From assembly GCF_009176705.1 (NCBI RefSeq), contig NZ_AP021846.1, positions 1,954,001 to 2,018,000 on the forward strand: 64,000 nt of DNA. Reading direction: 5' to 3'. The DNA is from Pseudoalteromonas sp. A25 (GTDB lineage Bacteria > Pseudomonadota > Gammaproteobacteria > Enterobacterales > Alteromonadaceae). The notes under the pieces are model-generated. The model ran no database searches, had not been told where the DNA came from, and was given only the letters and a program-made list of their open reading frames with translations. Shown one piece after another: positions 20,289-44,585 of this stretch; position 1 is the stretch's first letter; each line of letters starts with the position of its first letter. A program made the translations under genes and the position numbers.

Positions 20289-20301
20289 TTGCACAATGCA
20301 A
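20289..20301. promoter_or_regulatory. LuxO/SypG-type palindrome, yvcK-like region
   Basis: TTGCACAATGCAA, a perfect TTGCA-N3-TGCAA palindrome inside a longer CTTTGCA / TGCAAAG repeat. Its centre lies 91 bp upstream of the GG of the sigma-54 promoter at 20385 and 22 bases before the divergent kinase gene. Confidence 0.65.
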
Positions 20302-20384
20302 AGAATAGTGGGCATTTCAATATTGGTCCAATTTAAAAAACAGTGTTTTAAATTAATTTCAATAAGTTATAAAAAAATGTGTGC

Positions 20385-20400
20385 TGGAATAGTCTATGCT
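20385..20400 (+). promoter_or_regulatory. Sigma-54 promoter of the YvcK-like gene
   Basis: TGGAATAGTCTATGCT has GG-N10-GC spacing. Transcription would start near 20412, leaving a leader of about 24 bases. Confidence 0.55.
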
Positions 20401-20435
20401 TATTTATTCTCATTAGTCACTTTCGGTTTGTCTCA

Positions 20436-21296
20436 ATGAAAATAGTATGTTTGGGTGGTGGTCATGGGCTTGCGCAAGTATTAAAAGCGATTAGCCCTCT
20501 TAGCAGCGAATTAACTGCCATTATTGCAACAACGGATAACGGTGGTAGTTCAGGTCGGATTAGATCCTCAGAACAATGCGTGGCACTTGGCGACATAAGA
20601 AGGTGTTGTCTAGAGCTTGCTGGAGATAACTCGATATTACACACTATTTTTCAACATCGCTTCAAAGGGGGCGAGCTCGAAGGTCATAGTCTTGGTAATT
20701 TAGCGCTACTTGGCTTATTACAGCTAACTGATAGCGCGACAGAGGCTGTTGCTCAATTTAACGCAATTTTAGGAAACACTCAAACAGTTCTCCCAATGTC
20801 AGATCAAACAGTCGATTTAATCGCAACGATGCGCAACGGCGACACCGTTATTGGCGAATGCGAAATAGATGCATTAAATGAGCTACCTGAACACATTGGC
20901 CTTACTCACAATGTATGTGCTGATCAAAGAGCCATCGATGCCATTCATCATGCAGATGTCGTACTTATTGGGCCTGGGAGCATAATTTCTAGCGTGATGC
21001 CAGCCTTGCTTGTAGAGAACATAGCGCAGGCCCTTAAAAATACAGCGGCATGTAAAATATTTGTAGAAAACATAGCACAAGAAGATAGCGTTGTTGCGCA
21101 GTTAAAAGAGCACTCTATCATTGACTGGTTACAAAGGCAGGTTGGGTATAAGTTTTGTGATATGAGCTTATCACCGCAAGCGATTGCAAAAATTTCTAAT
21201 CATGCGAGCTGCAGTAACAACTGCGAAAGCCAGTTACATAATATTGAGCAACTTCAGTCTGTATTTACAACGTTGTTTCTGACCAAAAAACGATAA
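20436..21296 (+). CDS. YvcK/CofD-like protein (UPF0052), UDP-sugar-binding family
   Basis: A 286-residue cytoplasmic protein. I chose the ATG at 20436 because the conserved family start 'MKIVCLGGGHGLAQVLKAI' begins there. Further family motifs are 'TAIIATTDNGGSSGRIR', 'ALGDIRRCCLEL', 'GHSLGNLALLGLLQL', 'VLIGPGSIISSVMPALL' and the usual end. YvcK proteins bind UDP-GlcNAc and related UDP-sugars and affect carbon flow and envelope growth in Bacillus. Here the gene has a LuxO/SypG-type palindrome and sigma-54 promoter of its own, which suggests it links nucleotide-sugar status to polysaccharide synthesis. No strong ribosome-binding site is visible. Confidence 0.88.
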   Translation: MKIVCLGGGHGLAQVLKAISPLSSELTAIIATTDNGGSSGRIRSSEQCVALGDIRRCCLELAGDNSILHTIFQHRFKGGELEGHSLGNLALLGLLQLTDSATEAVAQFNAILGNTQTVLPMSDQTVDLIATMRNGDTVIGECEIDALNELPEHIGLTHNVCADQRAIDAIHHADVVLIGPGSIISSVMPALLVENIAQALKNTAACKIFVENIAQEDSVVAQLKEHSIIDWLQRQVGYKFCDMSLSPQAIAKISNHASCSNNCESQLHNIEQLQSVFTTLFLTKKR

Positions 21297-21299
21297 AGT

Positions 21300-21638
21300 T
21301 TAATGTTTATTTGCAATAAGTGTTATGGCATCAGAAAAAGCTTCTTCGCTTAACACTGTTGCTTTTTCAATCAGGGGCGACAGCTCATTTAGGGTAATTT
21401 CTTGATGTTTTGTGGCCATCTCTATTAGCTCACAGGTTTGTGCTAATAAAATCGCGCCATAACTGCGGCTACTACTTTTTAAACTATGTGCAAGGTGTTG
21501 GATAAGTTCTATGTTTTCACTGCTGTTTAGTTCGTTTATCTGTTTTCGCGATTCAGTAACAAATACACTCAAAAGCTGTAGTGCCAGCTCTTCACCTACA
21601 TCATTGCATAATTGGGAAAATATCTTGTTATCTATCAC
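21300..21638 (-). CDS. Hpt phosphotransfer protein (LuxU-like)
   Basis: A 112-residue stand-alone histidine phosphotransfer domain. The phospho-His is in 'LIQHLAHSLKSSSRSYGA', the standard HxLKxxS..GA motif. The start is the GTG at 21638, preceded by AAGGA at the right distance; a longer frame begins at 21671 but would run into the divergent gene. The size matches LuxU (about 114 residues). It probably carries phosphate from the hybrid kinase at 18258 to a receiver such as that of SypG (22670) or the stand-alone receivers. It ends 3 bases from the convergent YvcK-like gene. Confidence 0.88.
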   Translation of the reverse strand: MIDNKIFSQLCNDVGEELALQLLSVFVTESRKQINELNSSENIELIQHLAHSLKSSSRSYGAILLAQTCELIEMATKHQEITLNELSPLIEKATVLSEEAFSDAITLIANKH

Positions 21639-21644
21639 GATGAT

Positions 21645-21654
21645 TCCTTGGGAG
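21645..21654. promoter_or_regulatory. Abutting divergent ribosome-binding sites
   Basis: AAGGA on the minus strand (21645-21649, for the Hpt gene) touches GGGAG on the plus strand (21650-21654, for the glycosyltransferase). The start codons are 21 bases apart, so each promoter must lie inside the opposite gene. Confidence 0.6.
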
Positions 21655-21659
21655 AAGTT

Positions 21660-22673
21660 ATGAGTTATCACGTCATTCTATTTGTTGATTCTGCCGGATT
21701 CGGGGGGATTGAATCTCACATCATAGAGTTAGCAAAACTGCTTACGCGCCATCATGTACAGTGTAGTGTGCTTTTTTACAAAGATCATAATAATCAACCC
21801 TATTATAAAAGGCTGCAGAGTGAAAATATTAAATTTTCATTTCTCAGTGGTAGCATTGTGTCTATGCTTTGCGCTCTGACTAAACTCAAGACAAATACAA
21901 TCATTCATACTCACGGCTATAAAGCAGGGGTTATAGCCAAGCTGTGCTGTAAACTTTTAGCAAAGCCGTGCATCAGCACATATCATGCTGGAGAAACAGG
22001 TCTTGGCAAGGTTAAGTGGTATAACAAACTCGATAAATGGCTCAGTTTTTTATCTTATAACTTTGCGGTGTCGCGAGTTATTGCGGCTCAAATTGATAAG
22101 GCAACTGTATTAGATAACTTTATTGTATCCCCGCAACCCTATTCCGTTCGCAAGAATCGTTCAAATGTACTCAAAGTGGGGTTTGTTGGCAGACTTTCCT
22201 ACGAAAAGGGGCCTGATCAGTTTGCACAAATTGCTAACGCCTTCGCAACTGATAAGCGTTTTTCTTGGCATGTATTTGGTGATGGCCCAATGAAAACCGA
22301 GCTAATGAATATGTCACCTACTCTATCATTGCACGGTATTATTAATAGCAACGAAATATGGCCACAAATCGATGTTCTCTTGGTAACATCACGTCAAGAA
22401 GGTTTACCAATGGCAATTCTGGAGGCGATGTCCAATGGCGTCTTAGTGGTTAGTACTGATGTTGGAGCAATCTCTAACGTAGTGGTAAATCGACAGACAG
22501 GGTATTTAATCGAAGATTTTTCAGTTGTTCTATTTTCTGAGGTTCTCAACCAGCTTGGTGACAACCTAAACATTGACGTATTAACATCTCAAGCACGCAA
22601 CCTTATAAAAGAGCGCTTTTCAGGAAAGCAACAATGGCAGCTACTGGATCAGGCCTATCAAAACTCTATTTAA
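21660..22673 (+). CDS. Glycosyltransferase family 4 (possible SypH/I counterpart)
   Basis: A 337-residue GT-B glycosyltransferase. The start at 21660 is supported by GGGAG six bases upstream and by the family-like 'HVILFVDSAGFGGIESHIIELAK'. The C-terminal nucleotide-sugar domain shows 'KVGFVGRLSYEKGPDQFAQIA', 'WHVFGDGPMKTEL' and the EX7E motif 'SRQEGLPMAILEAMSNGV'. It adds a sugar to a lipid-linked oligosaccharide on the cytoplasmic face. It lies at the edge of the island and its 3' end overlaps the convergent sypG by 4 bases. The donor and acceptor cannot be read from sequence. Confidence 0.85.
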   Translation: MSYHVILFVDSAGFGGIESHIIELAKLLTRHHVQCSVLFYKDHNNQPYYKRLQSENIKFSFLSGSIVSMLCALTKLKTNTIIHTHGYKAGVIAKLCCKLLAKPCISTYHAGETGLGKVKWYNKLDKWLSFLSYNFAVSRVIAAQIDKATVLDNFIVSPQPYSVRKNRSNVLKVGFVGRLSYEKGPDQFAQIANAFATDKRFSWHVFGDGPMKTELMNMSPTLSLHGIINSNEIWPQIDVLLVTSRQEGLPMAILEAMSNGVLVVSTDVGAISNVVVNRQTGYLIEDFSVVLFSEVLNQLGDNLNIDVLTSQARNLIKERFSGKQQWQLLDQAYQNSI

Positions 22674-24115
22674 TGTTGAACCTCAATTTCTTCCCAAGAT
22701 TTTATTTTTCGATAAATTGTTGAAGGGCTTACATCTAACATCGCCGCAGCTTTAGGAATATTGTTATCACACAGGCTTATTGCATGTTCAATGTATCTTT
22801 TTTCTACTATCCATAACGGTTCGATATCACCAACTGATTGAACGGAAGATTGAGATTGATTGTCGATTTTATTTACTTCAGGTGTATGTTGAGCTGCAAA
22901 AGACGGTGAGTTGTGTTGTAAAGTGTTTTCTGAAGAGGTAACAACACCGGTATTACGATGTAAATCCGGCACCATATCTATGTCTATCCAACTTTGTTGG
23001 TTCAACACCAACGTATTTCTTACGGTATTTTCTAATTGTCTCACATTGCCAGGCCATGAGTACGCCAAAAAGGCGCGTTTAACCGACTCTGACATACCGG
23101 TATAGCCATGGCGCTCTTCTTTGGCTAGCTTTCTAAATAATGCATCAGCAATCTCAACAATATCATTGCCCCGCTCTCTCAGCGGCGGTAGCGCAATAGG
23201 AATAACATGTAAGCGATAATACAAATCTTCTCTAAACCTACCTGCTTGCACTTCAGCTAACGGATCGCGATTAGTTGCACAGACGAATCGAACATCCACT
23301 TTAACTTCTTTTTCGCTTCCTACTTGTTGATAGCAGCCTGTTTGAATGAACCTTAATAGTTTGCTTTGCAAATTGATGTCCATTTCGCATAACTCATCTA
23401 AAAATAATGTGCCACCATCGGCTTGTCCGGCTGCACCTTCACGGTTTGCAATCGCACCAGTAAAAGCGCCTTTTAAGTGTCCAAATATTTCACTCTCAAT
23501 CAGATCTTTTGGAATAGCTGCACAATTAAGCGCTACAAAAGGTTTATGCGCTCGAGGAGACGCTAAATGAACAGCTCGCGCACACAGCTCTTTTCCTGTA
23601 CCGCTTTCTCCTGTAATAAATACTGTTGCTTTGGAAGCGGCTGCAGAATTAATAATTTGATACACCGATTGCATTGCTCTTGATGATCCGATAAGGTCAT
23701 AAAACTTACCGTTCTCATAAGTTTTGTGATATTTCTCAACCTCTTGAGTAAGGCTTTTTAATTTTAAGGTGTTATTTATGGTGATCCTAAACCTATCTGC
23801 CTCTACAGGTTTTTCTAAAAAGTCGCTAGCCCCTAAGCGTATTGCCTCTATTGCCATTTCTTTTGTTGCGTGGCCAGTCAGCACGATCACCTGCGGTTTA
23901 TTATCAGCTGATAATTGAGATAAAATATCCAATCCATTGATATCTGGTAACATCACATCTAATACAATCAGATCTGGGTTAAACGATTCGATAGCGCTCA
24001 ACGCTTCTTTCCCGCAATGCGCTATGTCAGTTTGGATCCCTGTAGGGATTAGGTATGACTGATACATCAGCGCCAACGATTCAGTATCTTCGACAATTAA
24101 CACCTTCGGCGGCAT
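22670..24115 (-). CDS. sypG: SypG/LuxO-like sigma-54-dependent response regulator
   Basis: A 481-residue NtrC-type activator. I chose the second ATG (24115), since AAGGA has proper spacing only to it; this places the phospho-Asp (IVLDVMLPDINGL) at residue 53. Receiver (1-120) is followed by AAA+ with Walker A GESGTGKE, the sigma-54 loop 'GHLKGAFTGA', Walker B 'GGTLFLDELCEM' and arginine fingers, then a Fis-type helix-turn-helix (IPKAAAMLDVSPSTIYRKI). The C-terminal 'PLWIVEKRYIEHAISLCDNNIPKAA' is typical of LuxO and SypG. It is the last gene of the sypA operon and the obvious factor for the TTGCA-N3-TGCAA palindromes and sigma-54 promoters of this island. Confidence 0.9.
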   Translation of the reverse strand: MPPKVLIVEDTESLALMYQSYLIPTGIQTDIAHCGKEALSAIESFNPDLIVLDVMLPDINGLDILSQLSADNKPQVIVLTGHATKEMAIEAIRLGASDFLEKPVEADRFRITINNTLKLKSLTQEVEKYHKTYENGKFYDLIGSSRAMQSVYQIINSAAASKATVFITGESGTGKELCARAVHLASPRAHKPFVALNCAAIPKDLIESEIFGHLKGAFTGAIANREGAAGQADGGTLFLDELCEMDINLQSKLLRFIQTGCYQQVGSEKEVKVDVRFVCATNRDPLAEVQAGRFREDLYYRLHVIPIALPPLRERGNDIVEIADALFRKLAKEERHGYTGMSESVKRAFLAYSWPGNVRQLENTVRNTLVLNQQSWIDIDMVPDLHRNTGVVTSSENTLQHNSPSFAAQHTPEVNKIDNQSQSSVQSVGDIEPLWIVEKRYIEHAISLCDNNIPKAAAMLDVSPSTIYRKIKSWEEIEVQH

Positions 24116-24142
24116 ACGCATATTCCTTTGTTGTTTATATTA

Positions 24143-25600
24143 TTAATTAATAACGATTAATGACGCATCGTCAAACTCTTTTGACAAACTAGCTTGAGAG
24201 TTTAACCAAAGTTGCTCTGCATAAACCTCTCCTTTTTTAATGTTATCAGGCAGGCATTCTTGTATACGCTTTTCTTCATTGAGTGTTGAACCCAAATTAT
24301 CAACCCAACCATCAGTATAGAAAATAAGATGTGCTATGTCTTTTAGCGGGTAACAATACTTTTCATAGACATGCTCACAAGAAAGTCCCATGAGTGGGCC
24401 AATGCCGGTCATTGGGCTAAATTTCCCATCTTTTTCAATGGCAATCGGTGGAGGGTGACCTGCATTATAAAAATACATATATTGCGCATCAAAAAACACG
24501 ATAAGCATTGTGAGCATACTTCCTTTGCATATTTTTTCATTGCTCAAGGCTTGGTTCATTGCATCAGCAAGCGTATCAATGTTGCTATAGCTGTTAATAA
24601 ACCCGCTGATAAACCCCTTTATTTCATAGCTAACCTGATTTGCTGATAACCCATGCCCCATTATGTCTGCAATAATAAACCCTTTGTATGGAAACTCTAG
24701 GGGAATAAAAATATCTCCGCCCAAGTTTGTTGTTATGGAACCAAATAAATGTGCTTGGCCAACGTTTCCCATTTCATAACGGAAATTCTCTATTTGGTTA
24801 GTTGACGTTGCAGGATGCACTTTTAATTTGTTCAACACTCTGTCTAAGTTAAGTAATAATCGCTCTTTAGTGACAGGTTTAGGGATATAATCATCAATGC
24901 CAAACCGGTTGAGTTTTTTAATGGTACCTACATCGTTATCACCCGTCAGCATAAGTATCGCTAATCTTGCCTTTATGTCTGATCTTGCCAACTGATTAAG
25001 AAGTGTTTCGCAGGTGTCGTTTTTTAATCTATAGTCAAGCAACAGTATGTCTATTTTAGATTGTGTTATTATCTGCCATGCGTCGCTGCAGTTTTGACAG
25101 GGAATAAACTCAAAGTCACTTTTGACATACGCCTCAATTAAAGACAACTGTGTGATATCGTCATCAACATATAACAGCGTTGTTTTGCGTTTAACCTTGT
25201 AAAGGTTAAACGCAAAATAGTTTTTATTGTCTTTTGTAACGTAACTTGCATCGGGGAAATAGTAGCGAATGAGTGCAACACCCATCCCCCCCTCCGCCAG
25301 ACTTTCGCTTTCAATCGTCCATTGAGAGTTGTTTTGTTCAAACAAGTTGTACGGTTCCAAATTGTCAATTAATTGCACGGTATATACATTGTTTCGTTCT
25401 CCGATTAACAAAGTGATGCACTGATCTTCGCCAAAGCTGTGCCGCAACAAATTGGTTAGATACTCGGTGATTACCAGCGCACTGGCGTCAATATCATCAT
25501 CGCTAATTTTAAGCGCCCCTAATACATGTTTTAATGCATGGCGCACTTGTGTGATAGCTGGACGTATTAAACTAAAACGATTGTGAAACTTAATATCCAT
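24143..25600 (-). CDS. sypE: SypE-like protein: HATPase / receiver / PP2C (SpoIIE-type) phosphatase
   Basis: A 485-residue three-domain regulator with the order of V. fischeri SypE. Residues 1-130 are an RsbW-like kinase domain (N box 'ITEYLTNLLRHSF', G box 'GGMGVALIRYYF'); 138-260 a receiver (LLYVDDD, LLLDYRL, LMLTGDN, IPKPV); 270-485 a SpoIIE/PP2C phosphatase (GGDIFIPLEF, ADIMGHGLSANQ, FYTDGWVDN, DDASLIVI). In Vibrio the kinase and phosphatase activities act on a serine of the STAS protein SypA, and the receiver switches between them. The partner SypA is encoded in the same operon. AAGGTG supports the start. All key motifs look intact. Confidence 0.93.
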   Translation of the reverse strand: MDIKFHNRFSLIRPAITQVRHALKHVLGALKISDDDIDASALVITEYLTNLLRHSFGEDQCITLLIGERNNVYTVQLIDNLEPYNLFEQNNSQWTIESESLAEGGMGVALIRYYFPDASYVTKDNKNYFAFNLYKVKRKTTLLYVDDDITQLSLIEAYVKSDFEFIPCQNCSDAWQIITQSKIDILLLDYRLKNDTCETLLNQLARSDIKARLAILMLTGDNDVGTIKKLNRFGIDDYIPKPVTKERLLLNLDRVLNKLKVHPATSTNQIENFRYEMGNVGQAHLFGSITTNLGGDIFIPLEFPYKGFIIADIMGHGLSANQVSYEIKGFISGFINSYSNIDTLADAMNQALSNEKICKGSMLTMLIVFFDAQYMYFYNAGHPPPIAIEKDGKFSPMTGIGPLMGLSCEHVYEKYCYPLKDIAHLIFYTDGWVDNLGSTLNEEKRIQECLPDNIKKGEVYAEQLWLNSQASLSKEFDDASLIVIN

Positions 25601-25608
25601 AATGCACC

Positions 25609-26307
25609 TTAATGGTTATGAAATAGCCAGTGCTGCTTACGAATTTGACTATCAAGCCAATTGGCTAGTTTTGGCCAACGTGTACTTGATTTTTGCAAAT
25701 GCCTAATCAGTCTTTTTCCTAGTGGCTCAAAATGGTGCTGTGTCACAACAACACGCACTGACTTATGGCCACTATCTTGCAGATGCTTTAGGCCAAGGCA
25801 GAGTGATTCCTCATCATTGTGCCCTAGTGCTGCAACTAAAATGGTCATATTGCTACAAGCGCTTAATGCATGTAACGGCACATTACCTTTATTCAGCTTC
25901 ATTACAGGCGACATGTCTATCAAAATGTAGTCATATTGCTGTAAAAGACGTTCGATGGCATATTGCATTGTCAGTCTATTTTTCGCTGATTCAAGCTCGT
26001 TTAAATGAGAAATAGTTAACAGATCATGCTCTGGCGTTTCTATTACGCTCAACTGACAGGAAATGTCATCGAACTGCCAACATTGAGTCTCGCTCCCATT
26101 GGGTAATGGCGTTGGGTTTAATGGGTTTAAATCAATTAGTAGCACACGATTGTGCTCGGCGCTTAAACCACAAGACACACTCTTACAAAGGCTGCTAGCA
26201 CCTCCGTTACCTGTTAGCGACAAAAATGTGACACAGCGCGCTTTTTGCTCTGTTATTTCGTTGCAAACTCTTTCAAGCTCTTGAAATTGATAAGGTATTG
26301 TTTTCAT
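25609..26307 (-). CDS. sypD: SypD-like CpsD/ParA-type P-loop protein with altered Walker A
   Basis: A 232-residue protein with the fold of the cytoplasmic domain of bacterial tyrosine kinases (CpsD/Wzc). Walker B is present (YDYILIDMSPVMKL), and 'RVLLIDLNPLNPTPLPNG' matches the Walker A' strand. The Walker A segment reads 'SLTGNGGASSLCKS', where the usual GEGKST has lost its lysine. The C-terminus (WLDSQIRKQHWLFHNH) has no tyrosine cluster. It may therefore be an adaptor for the Wzz/exporter complex rather than a true kinase. Its ATG overlaps the sypC stop (ATGA) and it lies 8 bases before sypE. Confidence 0.85.
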   Translation of the reverse strand: MKTIPYQFQELERVCNEITEQKARCVTFLSLTGNGGASSLCKSVSCGLSAEHNRVLLIDLNPLNPTPLPNGSETQCWQFDDISCQLSVIETPEHDLLTISHLNELESAKNRLTMQYAIERLLQQYDYILIDMSPVMKLNKGNVPLHALSACSNMTILVAALGHNDEESLCLGLKHLQDSGHKSVRVVVTQHHFEPLGKRLIRHLQKSSTRWPKLANWLDSQIRKQHWLFHNH

Positions 26308-28385: not shown

Positions 28386-28389
28386 AGTG

Positions 28390-29262: not shown

Positions 29263-29276
29263 AATTCAAGCCCCTT

Positions 29277-29594
29277 CTACGCATCTAACTTATCAATAAA
29301 TGGGATTGTTTTGTCGACCCTTAACAAGTTCATTAATTTGTGAGGTTGGCCATTAACTTTAAGAAGTGCTAGTTGCTGTCCCTTTTTCTCAATGCGTTTG
29401 TACAAAAATACCATCGCACCGATACCTGAAGAGTCGATAAACTCAGTTTCAGAAAAATCCAATACAATAAAGTCTTGCTCGCAAATGGCTAGCTGCTCAA
29501 AGTTTTCTCTGAAACTGTCGACCGTAAAGCCAGAAAAGTCTTTTGGTAAAGCTAATACACGACGAGTTGTGTTTTTTGGGATTGAAGTGATCAT
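29277..29594 (-). CDS. sypA: SypA-like STAS-domain anti-sigma-factor-antagonist-type protein
   Basis: A 105-residue single STAS domain. The phospho-serine motif is 'FIDSSGIGAM', which puts the second serine at residue 56, the position phosphorylated in V. fischeri SypA. The rest (GQQLALLKVNGQPHKLMNLLRVDKTIPFID) fits the SpoIIAA fold. In Vibrio the unphosphorylated form promotes biofilm formation and SypE controls its state. It is the first gene of the six-gene operon sypA-B-C-D-E-G, with a sigma-54 promoter and two LuxO/SypG-type palindromes upstream. What SypA acts on is unknown in general. Confidence 0.93.
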   Translation of the reverse strand: MITSIPKNTTRRVLALPKDFSGFTVDSFRENFEQLAICEQDFIVLDFSETEFIDSSGIGAMVFLYKRIEKKGQQLALLKVNGQPHKLMNLLRVDKTIPFIDKLDA

Positions 29595-29632
29595 GGGAGT
29601 AACCTCATAGTCGGTTGAGTTAATAATGAGGT

Positions 29633-29648
29633 TACAACTTAAGTGCCA
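29633..29648 (-). promoter_or_regulatory. Sigma-54 promoter of the sypA operon
   Basis: On the minus strand, TGGCACTTAAGTTGTA matches the -24 element exactly; -12 is TTGT instead of TTGC. Spacing is GG-N10-GT. The leader would be about 28 bases. Confidence 0.7.
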
Positions 29649-29698
29649 GCTTTTATGAAATTATAACTTTATGATAGATATAGTAATTTAAAGGAAGT

Positions 29699-29711
29699 GT
29701 GCATAATGCAA
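29699..29711. promoter_or_regulatory. LuxO/SypG-type palindrome, proximal site of sypA
   Basis: GTGCATAATGCAA, one mismatch to TTGCA-N3-TGCAA. Its centre is 58 bp upstream of the promoter GG. Confidence 0.55.
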
Positions 29712-29730
29712 AATTATCAAAAGCGACCAT

Positions 29731-29743
29731 TTGCATTATGCAA
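29731..29743. promoter_or_regulatory. LuxO/SypG-type palindrome, distal site of sypA
   Basis: TTGCATTATGCAA is a perfect palindrome of the LuxO form, followed by CGCATTT. Its centre is 90 bp upstream of the promoter GG and 32 bp (three helical turns) from the proximal site. Confidence 0.7.
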
Positions 29744-29767
29744 CGCATTTATTTGATGCATTGAAAG

Positions 29768-31570: not shown

Positions 31571-32647
31571 TTAAGCAAAAAGCGTACAATAAAACTGATC
31601 GTACTTGTTGGTCATGTCTTTGATCTGAGCGATAGACAAAGCATGCTTACGAATGGCGTCCCCCTTTGCCATCATCGCTGCTTTAATTAGTGTATCAGCG
31701 AGTGACTTATACCGGCCAAGTGGTAACAAAAAGCCTTGTGCATCGCTTAGTACTTCACTAATACCGCCCACATCGCTTGCTACAATGGGTACACCGCAAG
31801 CCATTGCTTCTAATATAGACAGTGGCAAACCTTCTCTTTGCGAGAATAGACAAAATACATCGATGGCAGAGTAAAACACTTCCATCTGCTGAACATTTCC
31901 TAAAAAATGTATCCGTTGGCATAGCCCCGCATCTTTCGCGTATTGGATTAAGCTGTCGTGCAGACTACCTTGTCCTGCAAACGCTAAATGATATTCTTGA
32001 GGCAGTGCTTTTAAAGCATCAATTAAAAGAGTGTGTCCTTTGCCTGTTTCCAAGCGTGCGGCGCAGCCAATTATTTTCACTTTTTTAGGTAGATCTAATT
32101 GGAAACGTGCATAGTGCATATTGATTGACGAAAATTTATTGCAATCAATCCCATTTAAAATGGTTTCTTTTGGCATTATTGATGTTTGAGCATAAAAATC
32201 AGTAGCAACAACGTTTGCATCTGCAATCCAATGTACTGGTGAGGCTGTGTTCAAAATTTTGGTTAATATTCTTGGCTTTATACCGTTTAGGTACCATGCA
32301 TCGTGCACCGTCGATACATGCTTTACAGATGGTCGCTTAAGACAAGCTAAGCAAGCATAGAGCATTGGCCCAATATGGTGACTATGAATAATTGAAATCT
32401 CATACTTGTCGATTAACCGAACCAACTTGCTTACCACGGCAAAGTCGAATTTCTGTTTTTTTTCAAGAAAATCGATGCAATTGCCTAGCTCTTTCAATTC
32501 AGGCCAGTGTATGAGGCTGTCTGCTTTATTGCCTTCAAGCGCCGATATGCGCATGTCATCACAGAAGCGACTTTGTTTAACTAAAGACACGGCCATTTTC
32601 TCTAAACCGCCAATTTTCAAATGTTGAACTAAGTGAAGTACTTTCAT
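31571..32647 (-). CDS. sypP: Glycosyltransferase family 4 (SypP position)
   Basis: A 358-residue GT-B enzyme. The start 'MKVLHLVQHLKIGGLEKMAVSLVK' and 'ISIIHSHHIGPMLYAC' are typical of the acceptor domain; 'KIIGCAARLETGKGHTLLIDALK', 'YHLAFAGQGSLHDSL', 'FLGNVQQMEVFY' and the EX7E 'REGLPLSILEAMACGVPIVASDVGG' mark the donor domain. It transfers a sugar to a growing lipid-linked oligosaccharide in the cytoplasm. Its start overlaps the stop of the wzz-like gene by 4 bases, and 9 bases separate it from the fused enzyme. The symbol reflects order in the locus. Confidence 0.88.
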   Translation of the reverse strand: MKVLHLVQHLKIGGLEKMAVSLVKQSRFCDDMRISALEGNKADSLIHWPELKELGNCIDFLEKKQKFDFAVVSKLVRLIDKYEISIIHSHHIGPMLYACLACLKRPSVKHVSTVHDAWYLNGIKPRILTKILNTASPVHWIADANVVATDFYAQTSIMPKETILNGIDCNKFSSINMHYARFQLDLPKKVKIIGCAARLETGKGHTLLIDALKALPQEYHLAFAGQGSLHDSLIQYAKDAGLCQRIHFLGNVQQMEVFYSAIDVFCLFSQREGLPLSILEAMACGVPIVASDVGGISEVLSDAQGFLLPLGRYKSLADTLIKAAMMAKGDAIRKHALSIAQIKDMTNKYDQFYCTLFA

Positions 32648-34143
32648 AGTGAGTTACCTCTATGTTGCGCATCCTCAACAATATGATTTAAATCAGGAGC
32701 ATGCGGGTCATGAATGATCGGAAGCACTGTTAAAACAGGCCCCGCTGAGAGTTTTTCAATGGTTGTGATGTCTTTTAAATGGCTATCGCATAGCGTTGCT
32801 ATAAACACACTGGCGATACCTGTAAATAAACCTAGTAAAACACCCAAAACTAAAGATAAAGCCAGTGACGTGTTAATCGGTTGCGTAGGGCTGTATGCGC
32901 GCTCTATGGTTTTAACTTTATCTGGGCCTTCGTACTTGACGAGTTTTCCTGTCACTTTGGCCATCTCATAGCGCCCAAGCATTTCTTTATACAGTGCTTG
33001 TTTTACATCATAATCGCGCTGTAATTTGCTGAGTTGTTTTTCAATATCACTGGTTACTAATAAGCGTTTACCCAACCCTTTAACTTGGCTATCTAGCATA
33101 TTAAATTCTTGCTGAAGCTGTTCAACCATGCTCTTTGCATCTTGCAAAGCAACAATTTGCGATACTAAAACACTACTTTCTCCACTTTGAGAAATAGGCA
33201 TGGTATTGGCCATTTGCCACAACCGATCTATGTCTATTTTTTGTAACTCTTTGCCTTCACTCAATAGCACTTGCTGCCTGTTGAGCAAACTGTCTAACTG
33301 TCTTGATTTTTCAATAACCTTTGAGTGCTTATCGGTATACCGTGTCTTTAATAAGCTCAACTGCGAGCGTAATCGAATGATCTTTTCTTCCAAATTTCCT
33401 AACACAGGATTAGCTTGCGCCATCTTACTCGCTAAATTGCTTAATTTGGCTTTAGCACCAGATAATTCAATAAACTTGTTTTGCTTATCACTTAACAGCC
33501 TATCCAATGTTTGCCGATTACTATTGAGTACTTCAGGTAACGTATCACTGTACTTAACTTTAAACTTGGCAAGCTCATCTTCCGAGTGTTCTAGTTCTTG
33601 TCTGAGCGTATCTAGTTGTTTATAGAAAAACTGTTCTGAGGTATCGAGGGACGCTTTAGTTGGTGCAAGCAGCCTTTCTATAAATTTTTCTACGACCTTC
33701 TCTAGGATTAGTTTCATCTTCGCAGGTTCGTGCCATTTTAAATGGATCCTAACGAGTTCATCGCCCACTAAGGATAAAGAAAGCGCATTTGCGAGCTGTT
33801 GATGAATTTTTTCAACTTCTTTGTTACTTGCATCAGGTTGGATAAGTTCTGTTTCTTTAGCAACCGCGATAAGCACTTTACGACTGATAACTAAAGTGCG
33901 AAGCGCATCTATCCGATTAGATAGCTCAAATGAAAACGACAGGTCATCTAAAAACGGGTTCAGCAAAGAGGATTCTTCTATCAAAATAGTCGCATGAGTT
34001 ACATATTGCTTTTGCGCTGTGGCGGACAGTACAAAAACCACAACTGGGACAATGCATACAGGCACAATAAACAGCTTAAAACGACTATATAGTGCATATA
34101 GCGATAAATAAGCGAGTCTTTTAATTTGTTCCTTTACTAGCAT
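32644..34143 (-). CDS. sypO: Wzz/GumC-type polysaccharide co-polymerase (SypO position)
   Basis: A 499-residue inner-membrane protein that sets chain length. I use the ATG at 34143 (MLVKEQIKRLAYLSLYALYS), which has AAAGG eight bases upstream; the frame runs 39 codons further without sense. TM1 is about residues 21-43 and TM2 about 431-453 (PTQPINTSLALSLVLGVLLG). Between them lie the Wzz domain, 'DEQLVRIHLKWHEPAKMKLI'-like region (DELVRIHLKWHEP) and long coiled coils. The proline-rich stretch before TM2 is conserved. There is no fused tyrosine-kinase domain, which fits with a separate SypD. It has its own sigma-54 promoter. Confidence 0.88.
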   Translation of the reverse strand: MLVKEQIKRLAYLSLYALYSRFKLFIVPVCIVPVVVFVLSATAQKQYVTHATILIEESSLLNPFLDDLSFSFELSNRIDALRTLVISRKVLIAVAKETELIQPDASNKEVEKIHQQLANALSLSLVGDELVRIHLKWHEPAKMKLILEKVVEKFIERLLAPTKASLDTSEQFFYKQLDTLRQELEHSEDELAKFKVKYSDTLPEVLNSNRQTLDRLLSDKQNKFIELSGAKAKLSNLASKMAQANPVLGNLEEKIIRLRSQLSLLKTRYTDKHSKVIEKSRQLDSLLNRQQVLLSEGKELQKIDIDRLWQMANTMPISQSGESSVLVSQIVALQDAKSMVEQLQQEFNMLDSQVKGLGKRLLVTSDIEKQLSKLQRDYDVKQALYKEMLGRYEMAKVTGKLVKYEGPDKVKTIERAYSPTQPINTSLALSLVLGVLLGLFTGIASVFIATLCDSHLKDITTIEKLSAGPVLTVLPIIHDPHAPDLNHIVEDAQHRGNSL

Positions 34144-34157
34144 GCATTCTACCTTTT

Positions 34158-34170
34158 TTGCATATTGCAA
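34158..34170. promoter_or_regulatory. LuxO/SypG-type palindrome in the wzz leader
   Basis: TTGCATATTGCAA, identical to the site at 40169. It lies 14 bases before the wzz-like start, that is downstream of the sigma-54 promoter (34239-34254), with its centre 89 bp from the GG. A partial site (TTGCATTTTG) is at 34191. Confidence 0.55.
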
Positions 34171-34238
34171 TTGAAAACGCACGTCTTCATTTGCATTTTG
34201 AAAACAATGCCCATTAATGAGCAAGATAAAGGGAAGAT

Positions 34239-34254
34239 TGCAGATTATGGGCCA
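34239..34254 (-). promoter_or_regulatory. Sigma-54 promoter before the wzz-like gene
   Basis: On the minus strand TGGCCCATAATCTGCA has GG-N10-GC and a good -24 and -12 element. The leader would be about 85 bases and includes the palindrome at 34158. Confidence 0.6.
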
Positions 34255-34286
34255 AAACACCCTGACCCAAATATTTACCGGACTAT

Positions 34287-35426: not shown

Positions 35427-35429
35427 CAC

Positions 35430-38908: not shown

Positions 38909-38917
38909 TCACAGCCT

Positions 38918-40069: not shown

Positions 40070-40101
40070 AAAAGGCACTCCTAAATATGGTAACTAGTAG
40101 T

Positions 40102-40117
40102 GGCAATAATCATACCT
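40102..40117 (-). promoter_or_regulatory. Sigma-54 promoter of the sypJ operon
   Basis: On the minus strand AGGTATGATTATTGCC has GG-N10-GC with a perfect TTGC -12 element. The transcript would start near 40090, just before the ribosome-binding site. Confidence 0.65.
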
Positions 40118-40168
40118 ACCAAAATGTTGCACATTTACAGTGTCGATTAGCAATTTAGAAGCCATTTT

Positions 40169-40181
40169 TTGCATATTGCAA
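40169..40181. promoter_or_regulatory. Shared LuxO/SypG-type palindrome between two divergent sigma-54 promoters
   Basis: TTGCATATTGCAA is a perfect LuxO-form palindrome, followed by CGCAATTT. Its centre is 59 bp from the GG of the leftward promoter and 60 bp from the GG of the rightward one. Confidence 0.72.
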
Positions 40182-40233
40182 CGCAATTTATAAATCCCAT
40201 CTCGTTACGCTACTAAAATCTTGGTGTTCACAT

Positions 40234-40249
40234 TGGCGCTTAAATTGCG
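40234..40249 (+). promoter_or_regulatory. Sigma-54 promoter of the GT2/receiver pair
   Basis: TGGCGCTTAAATTGCG matches the -24/-12 consensus with GG-N10-GC. The start of transcription would be near 40261 and the leader about 24 bases. Confidence 0.7.
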
Positions 40250-40284
40250 TAGAGACGTTTACTGTTCGCTAAGAGACTACCGAC

Positions 40285-41205
40285 ATGAAATATGATGTAA
40301 GCGTTATCATTGCAAATTTTAACTGCAAGCAATATTTGCCAATCGCATTTGCAAGTATTTTGAAACAAACTGGACTCATTGTAGAGATCATAGTGGTTGA
40401 TGATGGGTCGGATGATGGCAGTATTGAGTGGTTAGAACTTGCTCAAAAGACAATATCAAACTTGGTGTTAATAAAACAACAAAGGGCTGGCGTAGTTGCC
40501 GCACGAAACCGAGCAATTGATATTGCTCGAGCACCCTATATCGCATTTTTAGACGCTGATGATTATTGGATTGATGACAAGTTAAAAGCACAATATCAAC
40601 ACATGAAAGCTCACCCAGAATGTGTATTGACGTTTACAAACTACATGCACGTAAACGAAAATTACCACCCTATCATTGACTGCTTTTCGTATTGGCCAGA
40701 GTTTTATCAACCAGGCCTTAAAAGCTCAACTAACTACACAACACTCGCAAACCCACTAGACTTGTTATTGCATGCAAACGTAATTGGCACGTCTTCAGTA
40801 ATGGTCTCGGCAAACGCGATTAGAAGAGTCAATAAATTTGACCCAACGTTAAAAAGTGCAAGCGATTGGGATTGCTGGCTAAACCTCGCGTCGATAGGAA
40901 ATGTTGCATACACTTATCAATGCGCTATGGGTTATTTAATGCGCTCAGGTTCAATAACAGCAAATAGAGTGCGTCGTTTAGAGGCTATGCAAAGTATTAT
41001 TAAGCGTGTTTACGCTCAATCTTCGGTAAGCTTTAGCACGAAAATAAAAACGAAAGCGAGAATGAATGAATGTTACGCAGAGTATTTCTCAGAACAAGGT
41101 AAAACGCTCAATGCACTTTTCTACACCGCGTGTGCATTTGGGTTAAACCCACACGCCAGAAATGCCAAGCATTTAATGCATAGTTTAAAGCAGCTTATTG
41201 TATAA
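40285..41205 (+). CDS. Family 2 glycosyltransferase (possible SypI counterpart)
   Basis: A 306-residue GT-A enzyme. 'VSVIIANFNCKQYLPIAFASI' starts the domain, 'EIIVVDDGSDDGSIEWL' holds the first Asp, and 'YIAFLDADDYW' holds the DXD metal motif. 'SASDWDCWLNLASIG' gives the likely base-bearing segment. It lacks membrane helices. It is divergent from sypJ, shares the palindrome at 40169 and has its own sigma-54 promoter, so it is probably co-induced and acts on the same polysaccharide. A receiver gene follows 9 bases later. Confidence 0.88.
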   Translation: MKYDVSVIIANFNCKQYLPIAFASILKQTGLIVEIIVVDDGSDDGSIEWLELAQKTISNLVLIKQQRAGVVAARNRAIDIARAPYIAFLDADDYWIDDKLKAQYQHMKAHPECVLTFTNYMHVNENYHPIIDCFSYWPEFYQPGLKSSTNYTTLANPLDLLLHANVIGTSSVMVSANAIRRVNKFDPTLKSASDWDCWLNLASIGNVAYTYQCAMGYLMRSGSITANRVRRLEAMQSIIKRVYAQSSVSFSTKIKTKARMNECYAEYFSEQGKTLNALFYTACAFGLNPHARNAKHLMHSLKQLIV

Positions 41206-41214
41206 GGTTAAAAT

Positions 41215-41622
41215 ATGTACAAAATAATTATTGTTGACGATGAAGAGCCAGTTTTAAGAGCGCTAAACCGGCTCTTTGCACGACACTATGAATTACACCT
41301 ATATAACGATCCAACCAAAGCGGTAGAGAGCTTTAAGAGTAACCAATATGACCTTATTCTGTCGGATATAAAAATGCCCTATCTCGATGGTTTTGAAGTG
41401 TTAACACAATTTGCGCAGTGTTTTCCTGACTCTGGAAGAATGCTGATAAGCGGATACACTGACTTAGACGAGTGCAGAGGCGCACTGAATAAAGATATTG
41501 CTCATATTATCGTTTCTAAGCCATGGGATAACTTTGAACTTGAGTCGATAGTTGCTCTATTGCTACAAAACTGTGCCTTGAAAAGTGAGCTAAAAGCATT
41601 AAAAAGTAATTTGATAGCTTAG
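41215..41622 (+). CDS. Stand-alone receiver protein (RpfG-like receiver)
   Basis: A 135-residue protein with only a receiver domain and a short helical tail (LLLQNCALKSELKALKSNLIA). The acidic pair is 'IIVDDEEPVLRAL', the phospho-Asp 'LILSDIKMPYLDG', the Ser 'MLISGYTD' and the Lys 'IVSKPWDNFEL'. The 'SKPWD' segment is typical of receivers attached to HD-GYP or GGDEF enzymes, but no output domain is present. It is 9 bases after the GT2 gene, in a sigma-54-controlled unit, so it may compete for phosphate in the Hpt relay or bind a partner. It overlaps the convergent phosphoesterase gene by 24 bases. Confidence 0.85.
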   Translation: MYKIIIVDDEEPVLRALNRLFARHYELHLYNDPTKAVESFKSNQYDLILSDIKMPYLDGFEVLTQFAQCFPDSGRMLISGYTDLDECRGALNKDIAHIIVSKPWDNFELESIVALLLQNCALKSELKALKSNLIA

Positions 41623-42516
41623 TAGTTTATGGTCGCTGCCATTAAATTGTTCAATCTGCAAGTCCGTTATAGCAATTGCTTCACTTACTATACAATTATC
41701 TATTGGAAGTTCTATTAAACTGAAGAGCAGCGCACTATCATAGTGCCATGTATGATAATTAACGCGAACTTGAGAGCAAGACAAACTGTTTTTAAAAGGA
41801 AAATAAACTGACCAAGGAACAGTGTTAAAATCACCGCTTATAACCCATCGCCCAGCAGCGTCTTTGGTCTCATTATGTAAGCGTTTTAATAGCGCATTGC
41901 GAAGTTGCCAATCGCGTCTGGTTCTTGGTGACGGTGGATGAATAGCGAATAGCTTGATAACCTCGCGTGCAATTAATAAGTCTAGCTCCACATAACCCAC
42001 CCGCTCCTTGTGGGTAAATACCACTTTACTACTTATTATTGGATAACGTGTAATTACGCCAATCCCCATGGGAAAACCAACCCTCTGTGAAGGGCCAAAC
42101 TTAAAGTAATGTGGCTTTATTGATTCAAATAGTGGCTTATGTTGATCATTAAACTCTTGAACGACGAGTAAATCCCAATCCTCCTTAGCAAGTTTAGCCA
42201 ACTCTTTTTTAATATATGGGTTAAAGTAGGATAAGTTTATCTGCTTGACCGTGAGTTGTGTTTTCTTTTCAGGTTCGCTAAGAAAATAACTTTGCCAGTT
42301 GAGGTGCAACCCCGTAAGAAACAATGATGCTGTTAGCAAACAAAGTGCTAACTTCTTGTTGTGATATGCGATTAACGTAGCCGGTATAAAAGAAAACAGT
42401 AACCACTGATAGCGAAAACTCCCTATCAAATCTCCGACATACCCATAGTCCTTTGCTAAAAAAGCTATGCTTATGAAGCAGAAATATAAAGCGAGATTGA
42501 TATATTTCATCGTCAT
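41599..42516 (-). CDS. Endonuclease/exonuclease/phosphatase-family membrane protein
   Basis: A 305-residue protein if it starts at the ATG at 42516 (two other ATGs are within nine bases). Three N-terminal helices (about 4-80) anchor it. The EEP/DNase I-like domain follows: 'WDLLVVQEFNDQHKPLF' (metal-binding Glu), 'VFTHKERVGYVELDL', 'LFAIHPPSPRTRRDWQ', 'WVISGDFNTVPWSVYF' (D.N) and 'FNGSDHKLLSYQITF' (SDH). All catalytic motifs are present. The substrate may be DNA, a lipid or a phosphorylated sugar. It is 72 bases downstream of the LruC gene, after a terminator. Its link to the island is positional only. Confidence 0.83.
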   Translation of the reverse strand: MTMKYINLALYFCFISIAFLAKDYGYVGDLIGSFRYQWLLFSFIPATLIAYHNKKLALCLLTASLFLTGLHLNWQSYFLSEPEKKTQLTVKQINLSYFNPYIKKELAKLAKEDWDLLVVQEFNDQHKPLFESIKPHYFKFGPSQRVGFPMGIGVITRYPIISSKVVFTHKERVGYVELDLLIAREVIKLFAIHPPSPRTRRDWQLRNALLKRLHNETKDAAGRWVISGDFNTVPWSVYFPFKNSLSCSQVRVNYHTWHYDSALLFSLIELPIDNCIVSEAIAITDLQIEQFNGSDHKLLSYQITF

Positions 42517-42550
42517 ATTTTTCAATCGCTCAGCAAAAAAATGAAAAAGA

Positions 42551-42577
42551 ATAAAAGCTAAAACCGTTAGCTTTTAT
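42551..42577 (-). terminator. Terminator of the lipoprotein/LruC operon
   Basis: An 11-bp stem (ATAAAAGCTAA / TTAGCTTTTAT) with a 5-base loop; the minus strand is T-rich after it. It begins 12 bases after the LruC stop. Confidence 0.7.
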
Positions 42578-42588
42578 CGTATATATTG

Positions 42589-44064
42589 TTACCACATCCA
42601 AATTGATTTGCCGATGTCTTTGGTGCTTTCTGTGTTCGGGCTCAAATACCAACTCGCATCTGACGTACCATCACCTCGGCTATAAGATAAAAACTTACTA
42701 TATGCTTGACCTAAATCTACATATTCAATTGGAGGGAGCCAATCATCTGGGAAGACCAATGCATATGGATATCCCTGAGTATCTTTAAATTGCGTATCTA
42801 TGCTGCCACTGTTGGCAGAAAATGCTAATCGAGCCACATTGCCCGGTAAATGTACTTCATGCCCGGTAACTTCAGTGTACAAATAAGGGTCGTATGGCGC
42901 GCTAGGCATTTCATTTGCAGGAACTGGACTATCCAAATTTACTACTACGCTAAATTTATTTCCTTTTATAATAGGGACATCTGGCAGCGTATTAACAAAT
43001 TCATAGCCCGGAACAGACATTAAACTTTTACTGTCTTCAAATATGAGTAAATCAACAGAATCAGAGAAGGTTTTTGATTGTGGATATCCAAAAATTGGCG
43101 TCTGCGACCCTGGCTTAAACATGCTTATGGTTGCCGAGCCTGACACTGAACTTGCAAACGGAATGTGTAAATACCAATCATGAGTATATGATGCGCCTCG
43201 CGCTATCATGTACCCTGTTGCATTAATTGAAACCACCTCATTGTTTAACATTCCAAAACCTACTTGGTAACCAACAATCAGATCATTAAAATCGTAATCA
43301 CCTTTGTTAGGATAACTGTCTTCATAACTTACAACAAAATACGAACTATTACTTGGGTAGTAAACCCATGAATCTGGTGACGTTACTTCGGAGTTATTCG
43401 CAATTACCAAAGGAGCTTCATCTAACCCTGCTGCGAGTTGCTCTAAATACTCTTTATCTTGACTACTTAAAAGAGCCACATCTTCGTACCCTGCCCCGTA
43501 GTCATAAAAAGCCTCAGGATCACCTAGCTCAATATTCGTTTGTAAAAACTCAACCGTTAATATTGCACTCACAGCGTCTGACAAGCTATCAGGAACAACT
43601 ATCGACAAAGTTCCATCGAATGACGAGCCATAAATATCACTGTCCTTACTACCTGTTATCCTAGAAGACCCGCTATCCCCAATCACTGTGTAATATTGAG
43701 CACGCTGAGTGTCGCTTTTCGGCGCGACCACCGTACTTGTTGGTGTTGAAAACGTTGAGTAAACATTTGTACCATTAGGAGTGCGTATCGTTAAGTATGC
43801 ATATTTTATCGTTACGCCTTGGGATTGTGCTTTTTCGCTGCCACTTGCTGCCTCGTTTACATCAATCGCAAATACCAAACTTCCGCTATTGTCTTGCCTA
43901 AACCATTCTAATGCTTCAGCTGTAGGATTTTTGTCTGCAATGTGAGCAACAAATAAATCAATGTCTCCATAACCTTGGCGTATCGTATCTTTGAGCTTCA
44001 CTGATTCGAACGCTTGCGTATTCATACTAATAACAACAACCAAGATAAAAATTAACCACTTCAT
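42589..44064 (-). CDS. Secreted LruC-domain protein, candidate biofilm-matrix protein
   Basis: A 491-residue protein with a signal peptide (MKWLIFILVVVISMNTQA). The N-terminal 200 residues are beta-rich ('GSLVFAIDVNEAASGSEKAQ', 'STPTSTVVAPKSD'). From about 225 the LruC/DUF4842 domain is clear: 'PDSWVYYPSNSSYFVVSYEDSYPNKGDYDFNDLIVGYQVG' in outline, with the acidic DYDFNDL Ca-binding-like motif, then 'INATGYMIARGASYTHDWYLHIPF' and 'GHEVHLPG'. LruC proteins are surface or matrix proteins of unknown role. It is coupled (ATGA) to a lipoprotein gene whose promoter region has the LuxO/SypG-type palindrome, so it may be a matrix component made with the polysaccharide. Confidence 0.82.
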   Translation of the reverse strand: MKWLIFILVVVISMNTQAFESVKLKDTIRQGYGDIDLFVAHIADKNPTAEALEWFRQDNSGSLVFAIDVNEAASGSEKAQSQGVTIKYAYLTIRTPNGTNVYSTFSTPTSTVVAPKSDTQRAQYYTVIGDSGSSRITGSKDSDIYGSSFDGTLSIVVPDSLSDAVSAILTVEFLQTNIELGDPEAFYDYGAGYEDVALLSSQDKEYLEQLAAGLDEAPLVIANNSEVTSPDSWVYYPSNSSYFVVSYEDSYPNKGDYDFNDLIVGYQVGFGMLNNEVVSINATGYMIARGASYTHDWYLHIPFASSVSGSATISMFKPGSQTPIFGYPQSKTFSDSVDLLIFEDSKSLMSVPGYEFVNTLPDVPIIKGNKFSVVVNLDSPVPANEMPSAPYDPYLYTEVTGHEVHLPGNVARLAFSANSGSIDTQFKDTQGYPYALVFPDDWLPPIEYVDLGQAYSKFLSYSRGDGTSDASWYLSPNTESTKDIGKSIWMW

Positions 44065-44483
44065 AAGTTAATCTCCATTGTAATTTGAGGGTCACCCGCA
44101 ACCGTTGAAAACATATCTACAAACACGTTAGACACGACATTTTCTATATATAAACTTAAGTTGAGCTCTCCTTTGACTCCGCCCAAAAATAATAACTTGC
44201 CCTGCTCTGTATAGACTTTTATGAACACAGTATTTGCACTAAAATCGTAGCTTTCAGGCTCAATTACGATGTTGTGCTCACGAAATTGAGAAAACACAAA
44301 CTCTTCACCAGCAGGCGTATCACTCAATAACGTTGACAACGAATTAGATTGCTCAGATGCAGGTTGTACACTCTGCTCTTGTGCACTTTGATTTATAATA
44401 TCCGTCGACTTAGCTTGCTCTTCTGATGAACCGCCACAGGCGATTAACGCAACGCAATAAATCAGGGTTAAACAAAACCTCAT
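44061..44483 (-). CDS. Hypothetical lipoprotein upstream of the LruC gene
   Basis: A 140-residue lipoprotein; the start is the ATG at 44483 with GGAG seven bases before it. The lipobox is 'VALIAC' with Cys near residue 16, followed by GGSS. A Ser/Gln/Glu-rich linker (about 20-60) precedes a small beta-rich domain ('EEFVFSQFREHNIVIEPESYDFSANTVFIKVYTEQGKLLFLGG' in outline) of no known family. It lies in the same predicted sigma-54 unit as the LruC protein, and the two probably work together at the cell surface, the lipoprotein perhaps as anchor. Confidence 0.7.
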   Translation of the reverse strand: MRFCLTLIYCVALIACGGSSEEQAKSTDIINQSAQEQSVQPASEQSNSLSTLLSDTPAGEEFVFSQFREHNIVIEPESYDFSANTVFIKVYTEQGKLLFLGGVKGELNLSLYIENVVSNVFVDMFSTVAGDPQITMEINL

Positions 44484-44517
44484 ATCAAACTCCAACAATG
44501 GTGCCTTGCATTACCAC

Positions 44518-44533
44518 TTCAAAATTTGCGCCA
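44518..44533 (-). promoter_or_regulatory. Weak sigma-54 promoter candidate of the lipoprotein/LruC unit
   Basis: On the minus strand TGGCGCAAATTTTGAA has a good -24 element, but the -12 doublet is GA instead of GC. The leader would be about 22 bases. Confidence 0.4.
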
Positions 44534-44572
44534 AAAAAAGAGTACTGATTTAATTGAATAATTTAGATGTGT

Positions 44573-44585
44573 TTGCAATTTGCAA
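44573..44585. promoter_or_regulatory. LuxO/SypG-type palindrome upstream of the lipoprotein/LruC unit
   Basis: TTGCAATTTGCAA, a perfect LuxO-form palindrome followed by CGCACAATG. Its centre is 47 bp upstream of the promoter GG, one helical turn closer than at sypA and sypJ. Confidence 0.65.

Follow-up and report, generated by a model that had tools for sequence, protein, structure and literature searches.

A Pseudoalteromonas syp-type polysaccharide locus probably activated by its own SypG-clade regulator through helically phased palindromes and sigma-54 promoters

The stretch of DNA analyzed here (hereafter the window) comprises 64,000 nucleotides of Pseudoalteromonas sp. A25 (contig NZ_AP021846.1, positions 1,954,001 to 2,018,000), whose genome consists of two contigs with 4.74 Mb. 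Domain searches revealed a syp-type (scv/rbd-type) polysaccharide locus at approximately 18–45 kb of the window, and this study concerns the control of that locus by the sigma-54 response regulator encoded in it. The locus encodes a SypF-like hybrid kinase, a YvcK/CofD-like protein, a separate Hpt protein, SypG, SypE, SypD, SypC, SypB and SypA, together with a sugar transferase, glycosyltransferases, SypO (GNVR), an acetyltransferase, Wzy, Wzx and a LruC/lipoprotein pair. The closest relatives of this SypC bear Pseudoalteromonas names. The syp names are those that we take to apply from domain content and gene order; compared with the Vibrio syp loci, the gene order presumably differs and the Hpt protein is presumably separate. 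The relevant features are given below, where sigma-54 elements and operators are predictions and all distances run from the operator centre to the first G of the promoter GG.

18258..20315, minus strand: SypF-like hybrid kinase (HisKA, HATPase, REC; Pfam), true start probably at 20267 from the sequence
20289..20301, plus strand: operator between the SypF-like kinase gene and the YvcK/CofD-like gene, upstream of both and close to the former
20379–21296: gene of the YvcK/CofD-like protein
20385..20400, plus strand: yvcK-like sigma-54 element TGGAATAGTCTATGCT (weak), 91 bp from the operator
21300..21671, minus strand: separate Hpt protein, likely a phosphorelay link (Pfam)
22670..24121, minus strand: SypG-type sigma-54 response regulator (REC, AAA+, Fis-type helix-turn-helix (HTH) NIPKAAAMLDVSPSTIYRK; Pfam, NCBIfam, PDB, tree)
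24143..25600, minus strand: SypE-like protein (HATPase_c_2, REC, SpoIIE phosphatase; Pfam)
29277..29594, minus strand: SypA-like STAS protein (Pfam)
29633..29648, minus strand: sypA sigma-54 element TGGCACTTAAGTTGTA, conserved
29699..29711, minus strand: promoter-proximal sypA operator, one mismatch, 58 bp from the GG, conserved in relatives
29731..29743, minus strand: distal sypA operator, exact, 90 bp from the GG and 32 bp from the proximal site
32644..34143, minus strand: sypO (GNVR chain-length protein), conserved start MLVKEQIKRLA (domain search and comparison of relatives)
34158..34170, minus strand: sypO operator 2 (exact), 89 bp downstream of the GG, 14 bases before the ATG
34191..34203, minus strand: sypO operator 1 (degenerate; minus strand TTTCAAAATGCAA), 56 bp downstream of the GG
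34239..34254, minus strand: sypO sigma-54 element TGGCCCATAATCTGCA, reading toward its operators
40102..40117, minus strand: sypJ sigma-54 element AGGTATGATTATTGCC, 59 bp from the operator centre
40169..40181: operator shared by the divergent sypJ (minus strand) and sypI (plus strand)
40234..40249, plus strand: sypI sigma-54 element TGGCGCTTAAATTGCG, 60 bp from the operator centre
44518..44533, minus strand: lipoprotein sigma-54 element TGGCGCAAATTTTGAA, 47 bp from the operator (49 in G035)
44573..44585, minus strand: operator of the lipoprotein/LruC operon, also in G035

The original prediction listed six TTGCA-N3-TGCAA palindromes, and our recount agreed with it, with five exact copies (20289, 29731, 34158, 40169 and 44573) and one carrying a single mismatch (29699). 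Missing from it were a degenerate copy at 34191 and an exact copy at 33135, the latter excluded from the operators because it lies within the sypO coding sequence. Sites 20289 and 34158 overlap the longest open reading frames (ORFs) of the adjacent genes; the likelier starts (the kinase ATG at 20267, from the sequence, and the conserved sypO ATG at 34143) place both outside the genes. In the window, 16 sites with at most one mismatch were found versus 7.6 ± 2.7 in shuffled sequences, none of the 100 shuffles reaching 16 (largest 14). Genome-wide there are 23 exact sites, six of them in the window against 0.31 expected under an even spread, a comparison that is post hoc as the window was noticed for these sites. 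Of the 17 exact sites elsewhere, 15 lie within an ORF of at least 80 amino acids, and three have an above-cut-off element at 35–124 bp, one of these with the GG. At position 371434 of contig 2 (L054:2501), a candidate element (TGGTAAGCCATCTGCA) lies 60 bp from an exact site, but both are within an ORF, and the nearest ORF of at least 50 amino acids downstream on that strand begins about 380 bp further on. The one-mismatch site at 16960–16972 of the window, upstream of a UDP-sugar dehydrogenase gene, overlaps a terminator-like stem, has only a weak −24 and was not counted; this site is exact in L056 and L057, and a weak element (TCGCATAGTTTTTGCT) lies 90 bp from it.

Recomputation of the distances returned the values originally claimed for sypA (58 and 90 bp), sypJ (59 bp), sypI (60 bp), yvcK (91 bp) and the lipoprotein gene (47 bp), and a second weak element was found 74 bp from the 44573 site. 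Conservation was assessed in 15 syp loci of the genus, i.e., the window and 14 relatives, and the sites, the sigma-54 elements and their spacings proved to be conserved in the relatives, an outcome on which the original prediction had made itself depend. A SypE relative is present in 15 of 60 sampled Pseudoalteromonas genomes (the genome of the window included), and the gene order near SypE is mostly kept in the 14 relatives' loci, one of which ends at a contig end. At sypA, two sites with at most two mismatches, 31–32 bp apart, accompany a sigma-54 element in 14 of the 15 loci, and the distance pairs are 58/90, 59/90, 59/91, 68/100 or 49/81 bp. The divergent sypJ–sypI region carries a single site, with no more than one mismatch, in 14/14 loci, with a sypJ distance of 58–59 bp in all 14 and a sypI distance of 59–60 bp in seven and 49–50 bp in the other seven. 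For yvcK, with up to two mismatches allowed per site, 12 of 13 loci have a distance of 88–92 bp, and G002 is the exception. The spacing differences among relatives approximate one helical turn (49/59/68 and 81/90/100 bp). Most of the relatives checked also have the YvcK/CofD-like gene inside their syp locus, preceded by a conserved operator. Besides, an extra promoter was observed outside the matched genes in five loci (G005 30325, G051 28493, G020 28694, G019 28484 and G032 29839, in joined-locus coordinates), with paired sites at 59/81 bp (four loci) or 49/71 bp (G051) and the element TGGAATGAAGCCTGCA or similar; it is a predicted additional target in one clade.

For the spacing analysis, the 15 loci of the genus were pooled with 50 of 58 named loci (eight were omitted, being on the same contigs), and the resulting 65 were thinned by sypC similarity to 58, whose intergenic DNA contains 161 sites with no more than one mismatch. 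The 124 pairs of a promoter with an upstream site peak at 49, 58–60, 68–70, 80–81, 90–91 and 100 bp, and 98 of them fall in 20 of 96 distance bins, which were chosen post hoc; pairs with a downstream site number 28 and belong mainly to sypO. Four permuted palindromes gave 65 sites (7, 24, 2 and 32), with nine upstream-type pairs (0, 5, 1 and 3) and five downstream-type pairs (0, 2, 1 and 2) that had no common spacing. When each genus and gene was allowed one state (30 of 35 states used, five outside 40–110 bp being dropped, and 17 promoters without a recognised gene omitted), the period that fitted best in a scan from 7 to 15 bp was 10.5 bp (R 0.54), with p = 2e-4 at 10.5 bp and p = 0.0019 allowing for the scan, which bears out the proposal that the distances cluster in classes by helical turns. 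Vibrio-type and hybrid sites (53 sites and 42 pairs in 20 loci) peak at 57, 68–70, 78–81 and 90 bp, as read by inspection. The principle itself is already published for LuxO at qrr, a passage of PMC4740811 describing tandem sites and loop lengths in steps of approximately 11 bp for 61 Vibrio qrr enhancers, and control of syp by SypG and sigma-54 is likewise known. In open-licence papers, we found no spacing rule in print for syp promoters or for bacteria outside the Vibrionaceae.

The original prediction placed the palindromes beside sigma-54 promoters. This holds also for the site at 34158, for which no promoter had been given, but its likely promoter lies upstream with the operator downstream of it. 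The sigma-54 element (34254–34239) reads toward the sites, so that 34191 and 34158 are both downstream, in the 5' leader of sypO, at approximately +32 and +65 relative to a start predicted 12 bp beyond the −12 element. Among 37 loci tried, the sypO start could be located in 31 (L096 and five Ferrimonas loci remained unscored), and all 31 have the downstream layout, with at least one site of at most two mismatches at 56–59 bp (25/31) or 86–89 bp (28/31); variants are L072 (58 and 109 bp), L099 (57 and 98 bp) and L075 (57 bp only). The layout occurs in 26/26 non-redundant loci versus a mean of 0.7 (maximum 5) in shuffled upstream stretches, and with a stricter cut-off in 25/26 versus 0.14 (maximum 2), the distance windows having been chosen after the data were seen and the element of G029 scoring low (14.5). 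In the alignment, TTGGC at −24, TGCAA at −12, TGCAA(AT) in the first site and GCAA..TGCAA in the second are conserved, and the first site reads TCTCA-N3-TGCAA in G035, L057 and L060. In Ferrimonas, the sypO site lies upstream, at 60–61 bp in four of five loci and at 71 bp in the fifth, with an additional downstream pair (38 bp) in L112. A sigma-54 element pointing away from the sypO sites was sought in Pseudoalteromonas and was not found. Activator sites beyond the transcription start, on its downstream side, occur with the flagellar regulators FlrC of V. cholerae, FleQ of P. aeruginosa and FlbD of Caulobacter, which are outside the LuxO/SypG family, and we know of no such layout for the activators of this family.

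A LuxO/SypG-like activator had been predicted to be encoded here, and NCBIfam and PDB matches agree with this, the tree refining the assignment to the SypG group. The NCBIfam LuxO model gave 653 bits, below its equivalog cut-off of 800 bits (next model, 386), and the PDB LuxO entry 5ep0 gave 495 bits versus 320 for the best entry not named LuxO. The REC, sigma-54 AAA+ and Fis-type HTH domains are all present, and the gene lies in the syp locus with sypA–E and glycosyltransferase genes. In a tree of 65 syp-locus regulators (the Photobacterium lipolyticum protein entered twice), 20 Vibrionaceae LuxO and one outgroup from the genome of the window, the 65, the regulator of the window and Vibrio SypG included, group together (88/99) apart from LuxO; the very long outgroup branch, the meeting of several long branches and a root placed only for drawing leave the deep order unsure. 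In LuxO searches at an E value of 1e-110, the regulator is the only match in its own genome. Across 41 genomes, the seven Pseudoalteromonas and 13 other non-Vibrionaceae have one match each, while 18 of 21 Vibrionaceae have two and G060, G163 (both LuxO-like) and G062 (the syp-locus one) have one. A search for Qrr RNA gave none in 7/7 Pseudoalteromonas genomes and detected one in a Photobacterium genome. A passage of PMC8941931 names Pseudoalteromonas among the bearers of syp-type loci, which it reports for 28 genera. The genes described here are orthologous to SypG/syp of Vibrio (Aliivibrio) fischeri, ScvE/scv of V. parahaemolyticus and RbdG/rbd of V. vulnificus, and, as in these systems, the locus carries the gene of its own activating sigma-54 response regulator, along with the partners SypE and SypF.

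The operator has the form of the LuxO operator of Vibrio qrr promoters, as the original prediction held. The latter is given as TTGCA-N3-TGCAA in a passage of PMC3352281 (citing Lenz 2004), and the same palindrome stands at the predicted sigma-54 promoters here. The V. fischeri SypG operator, given as TTCTCANNNTGMDWN in a passage of PMC10162802 (citing Ray 2013), is not what we found, the main sites being TTGCA-N3-TGCAA, but this difference is not a defining feature of orthology. The HTH differs as well, with NIPK here versus NVLN/K (one NVIN) in Vibrio SypG, and N-I/V-P-[KRQ] in 20/20 LuxO sequences. We compared HTH and operator in 64 loci with SypG and sypA (six near-identical), counting a site if it lay in the 400 bp upstream of sypA and had no more than one mismatch. 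With P, S or T at the second position of the N-x-x-x-A helix (46/64), 40 loci have a LuxO-type site, three a hybrid, one a Vibrio-type site and two none; L072 has both operator types and was scored as LuxO-type. With L or I there (18/64, all from the Vibrionaceae search), 12 have TCTCA-N3-TGAGA, two a hybrid, four none and none a LuxO-type site. Shuffled upstream stretches yielded 2.9 and 0.8 of 64. The change falls on a single branch of the tree and thus represents one event, so that the table counts are not independent.

The genomes of the Vibrio type also encode LuxO in 17/18 cases, the exception being G062, with a Vibrio-type SypG and no LuxO match. Presence of LuxO alone does not dictate the operator, as Photobacterium lipolyticum has both proteins and yet an NIPQ HTH and LuxO-type sites, and G062 is the converse case; thus, coexistence does not force the change. 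The HTH and operator change in Vibrio SypG is perhaps an escape from LuxO cross-talk. Considering that V. fischeri SypG can also act through LuxO-type sites at qrr1 (in a passage of PMC10162802), such an insulation would be one-sided, keeping LuxO off syp but not SypG off qrr. Two Vibrionaceae loci, L131 and L132, keep hybrid operators. We give about even odds to a wider scenario in which a LuxO-type operator and an NIPK-type HTH are ancestral for the SypG regulon, and the operator (TTGCA to TCTCA half-sites) and the HTH (IPK to VLN/K) shifted together along the lineage leading to Vibrio SypG, insulating syp from LuxO while retaining the helical rule; separately, sypO of Pseudoalteromonas and some Alteromonadaceae would be driven by downstream enhancers.

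Eleven Photobacterium syp loci (L079, L080, L092–L095, L098, L101 and L107–L109) have no sypG match, and the scored stretch ahead of their sypA element contains neither operator type when up to one mismatch is allowed; nine of them have one exact LuxO-type site elsewhere, near sypM or sypN matches, and LuxO might act at these loci. The syp locus L117 belongs to a genome (G163) whose LuxO is the single match at the cut-off; a LuxO-type site with one mismatch lies 105 bp away from its sypA element, and LuxO might drive syp directly there.

Taken together, these results suggest, with a probability that we put at about 0.87, that the island is a Pseudoalteromonas syp-type locus switched on by its own SypG-clade activator via helically phased palindromes and sigma-54, as judged from sequence comparison. 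A phosphorelay would run from the SypF-like kinase over the separate Hpt protein to SypG. Phosphorylated SypG would bind the TTGCA-N3-TGCAA palindromes as dimers, singly or in pairs often about 32 bp apart, the paired sites probably helping assembly of the AAA+ ring, and DNA looping would carry it to the sigma-54 RNA polymerase. Operator centres lie about 49, 59, 69, 80, 90 or 100 bp away from the GG, successive values differing by one helical turn, so that the activator would stay on one face of the DNA; indels of one turn are tolerated in evolution. The probable targets are the sypA operon, the divergent sypJ and sypI, the yvcK-like gene, the lipoprotein/LruC operon and sypO, where the loop would close from the opposite side, with the operators in the 5' leader.

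Several observations weigh against this interpretation. The sigma-54 score is our own weighted consensus, with chosen cut-offs of 14.5 to 17 that vary by analysis; the element of yvcK is weak, just two loci show the lipoprotein promoter (47 and 49 bp), and G032 has the sypA sites without a sigma-54 element above the cut-off. In the spacing data, the thinned states 66, 74, 98, 104 and 105 and the Vibrio pairs at 55, 64, 75, 97, 101 and 123 bp lie off the helical comb, and the raw counts overstate independence as the loci share ancestry. The threonine-HTH Ferrimonas loci L086, L088 and L112 have no LuxO-type site of at most one mismatch at sypA, while L078 has one. In 34 other genomes of the genus, exact sites number 3–18 with a SypE match (n = 14) and 0–20 without (n = 20), and they outnumber a reversed-pattern control in 29 of the 34 (13/14 with SypE and 16/20 without). 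TTGCA-N3-TGCAA is thus also somewhat over-represented in the genus for reasons other than the SypG regulon, and given this excess irrespective of SypE, the regulon signal consists of clustering and conservation within the island.

A spacing pattern arising from shared ancestry and chance, without helical constraint, would fit with most loci coming from one genus, with thresholds and thinning that were our choice and with the states off the comb. We regard it as highly improbable, considering that the nearer sites of the orthologous Pseudoalteromonas sypA lie at 48–49, 58–60 or 68 bp with none between, that other promoters and other genera have the comb in common, and that Vibrio sites with a different operator peak at similar distances. 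Nor is the regulator likely to be a true LuxO acting in quorum sensing, an assignment that we consider very unlikely even though its operator is identical to that of LuxO, LuxO is its best NCBIfam model, several database names are LuxO, and a passage of PMC6275029 treats a luxO, which may or may not be the gene of the window, as a Pseudoalteromonas quorum-sensing gene. The protein groups with the syp-locus regulators and not with Vibrionaceae LuxO, its score is under the LuxO cut-off, and its gene is within the syp locus; compared with LuxO at qrr, it belongs to another tree group, its sites flank polysaccharide genes, and Qrr RNA was not found in 7/7 Pseudoalteromonas genomes.

For sypO, an alternative is that the leader palindromes serve for repression or as a roadblock, or that they work as an RNA element close to the ribosome-binding site. 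Operator 2 ends 14 bases before the start codon, where a bound protein or a hairpin could block, and in Ferrimonas the site is upstream instead. On the other hand, the same motif occupies upstream positions elsewhere in the island, the separations between the sites are held at 29–33, 41 or 51 bp, a conserved sigma-54 element keeps its distance to them (56–59 and 86–89 bp, or 98 and 109 bp), and Pseudoalteromonas gave no sigma-54 element reading away from them. This alternative seems unlikely, although less so than the two explanations above, and we favor a downstream enhancer at sypO.

Elsewhere in the window, a cspA-type thermoregulator leader (Rfam RF01766) at 4462–4889 was the sole Rfam match above the gathering score.

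The new points of this study are the downstream layout at sypO and the split of operator and HTH between Vibrio and other SypG. Proteins labelled LuxO in Pseudoalteromonas syp loci are probably SypG. Paralogous activators must avoid each other's sites, and here genomes show both operator types, how the HTH differs and on which branch the two changed. Besides, sypO offers a natural pair of layouts, upstream in Ferrimonas and downstream in Pseudoalteromonas, with the same gene and the same regulator, which would be useful for defining the limits that looping geometry sets on sigma-54 activation.

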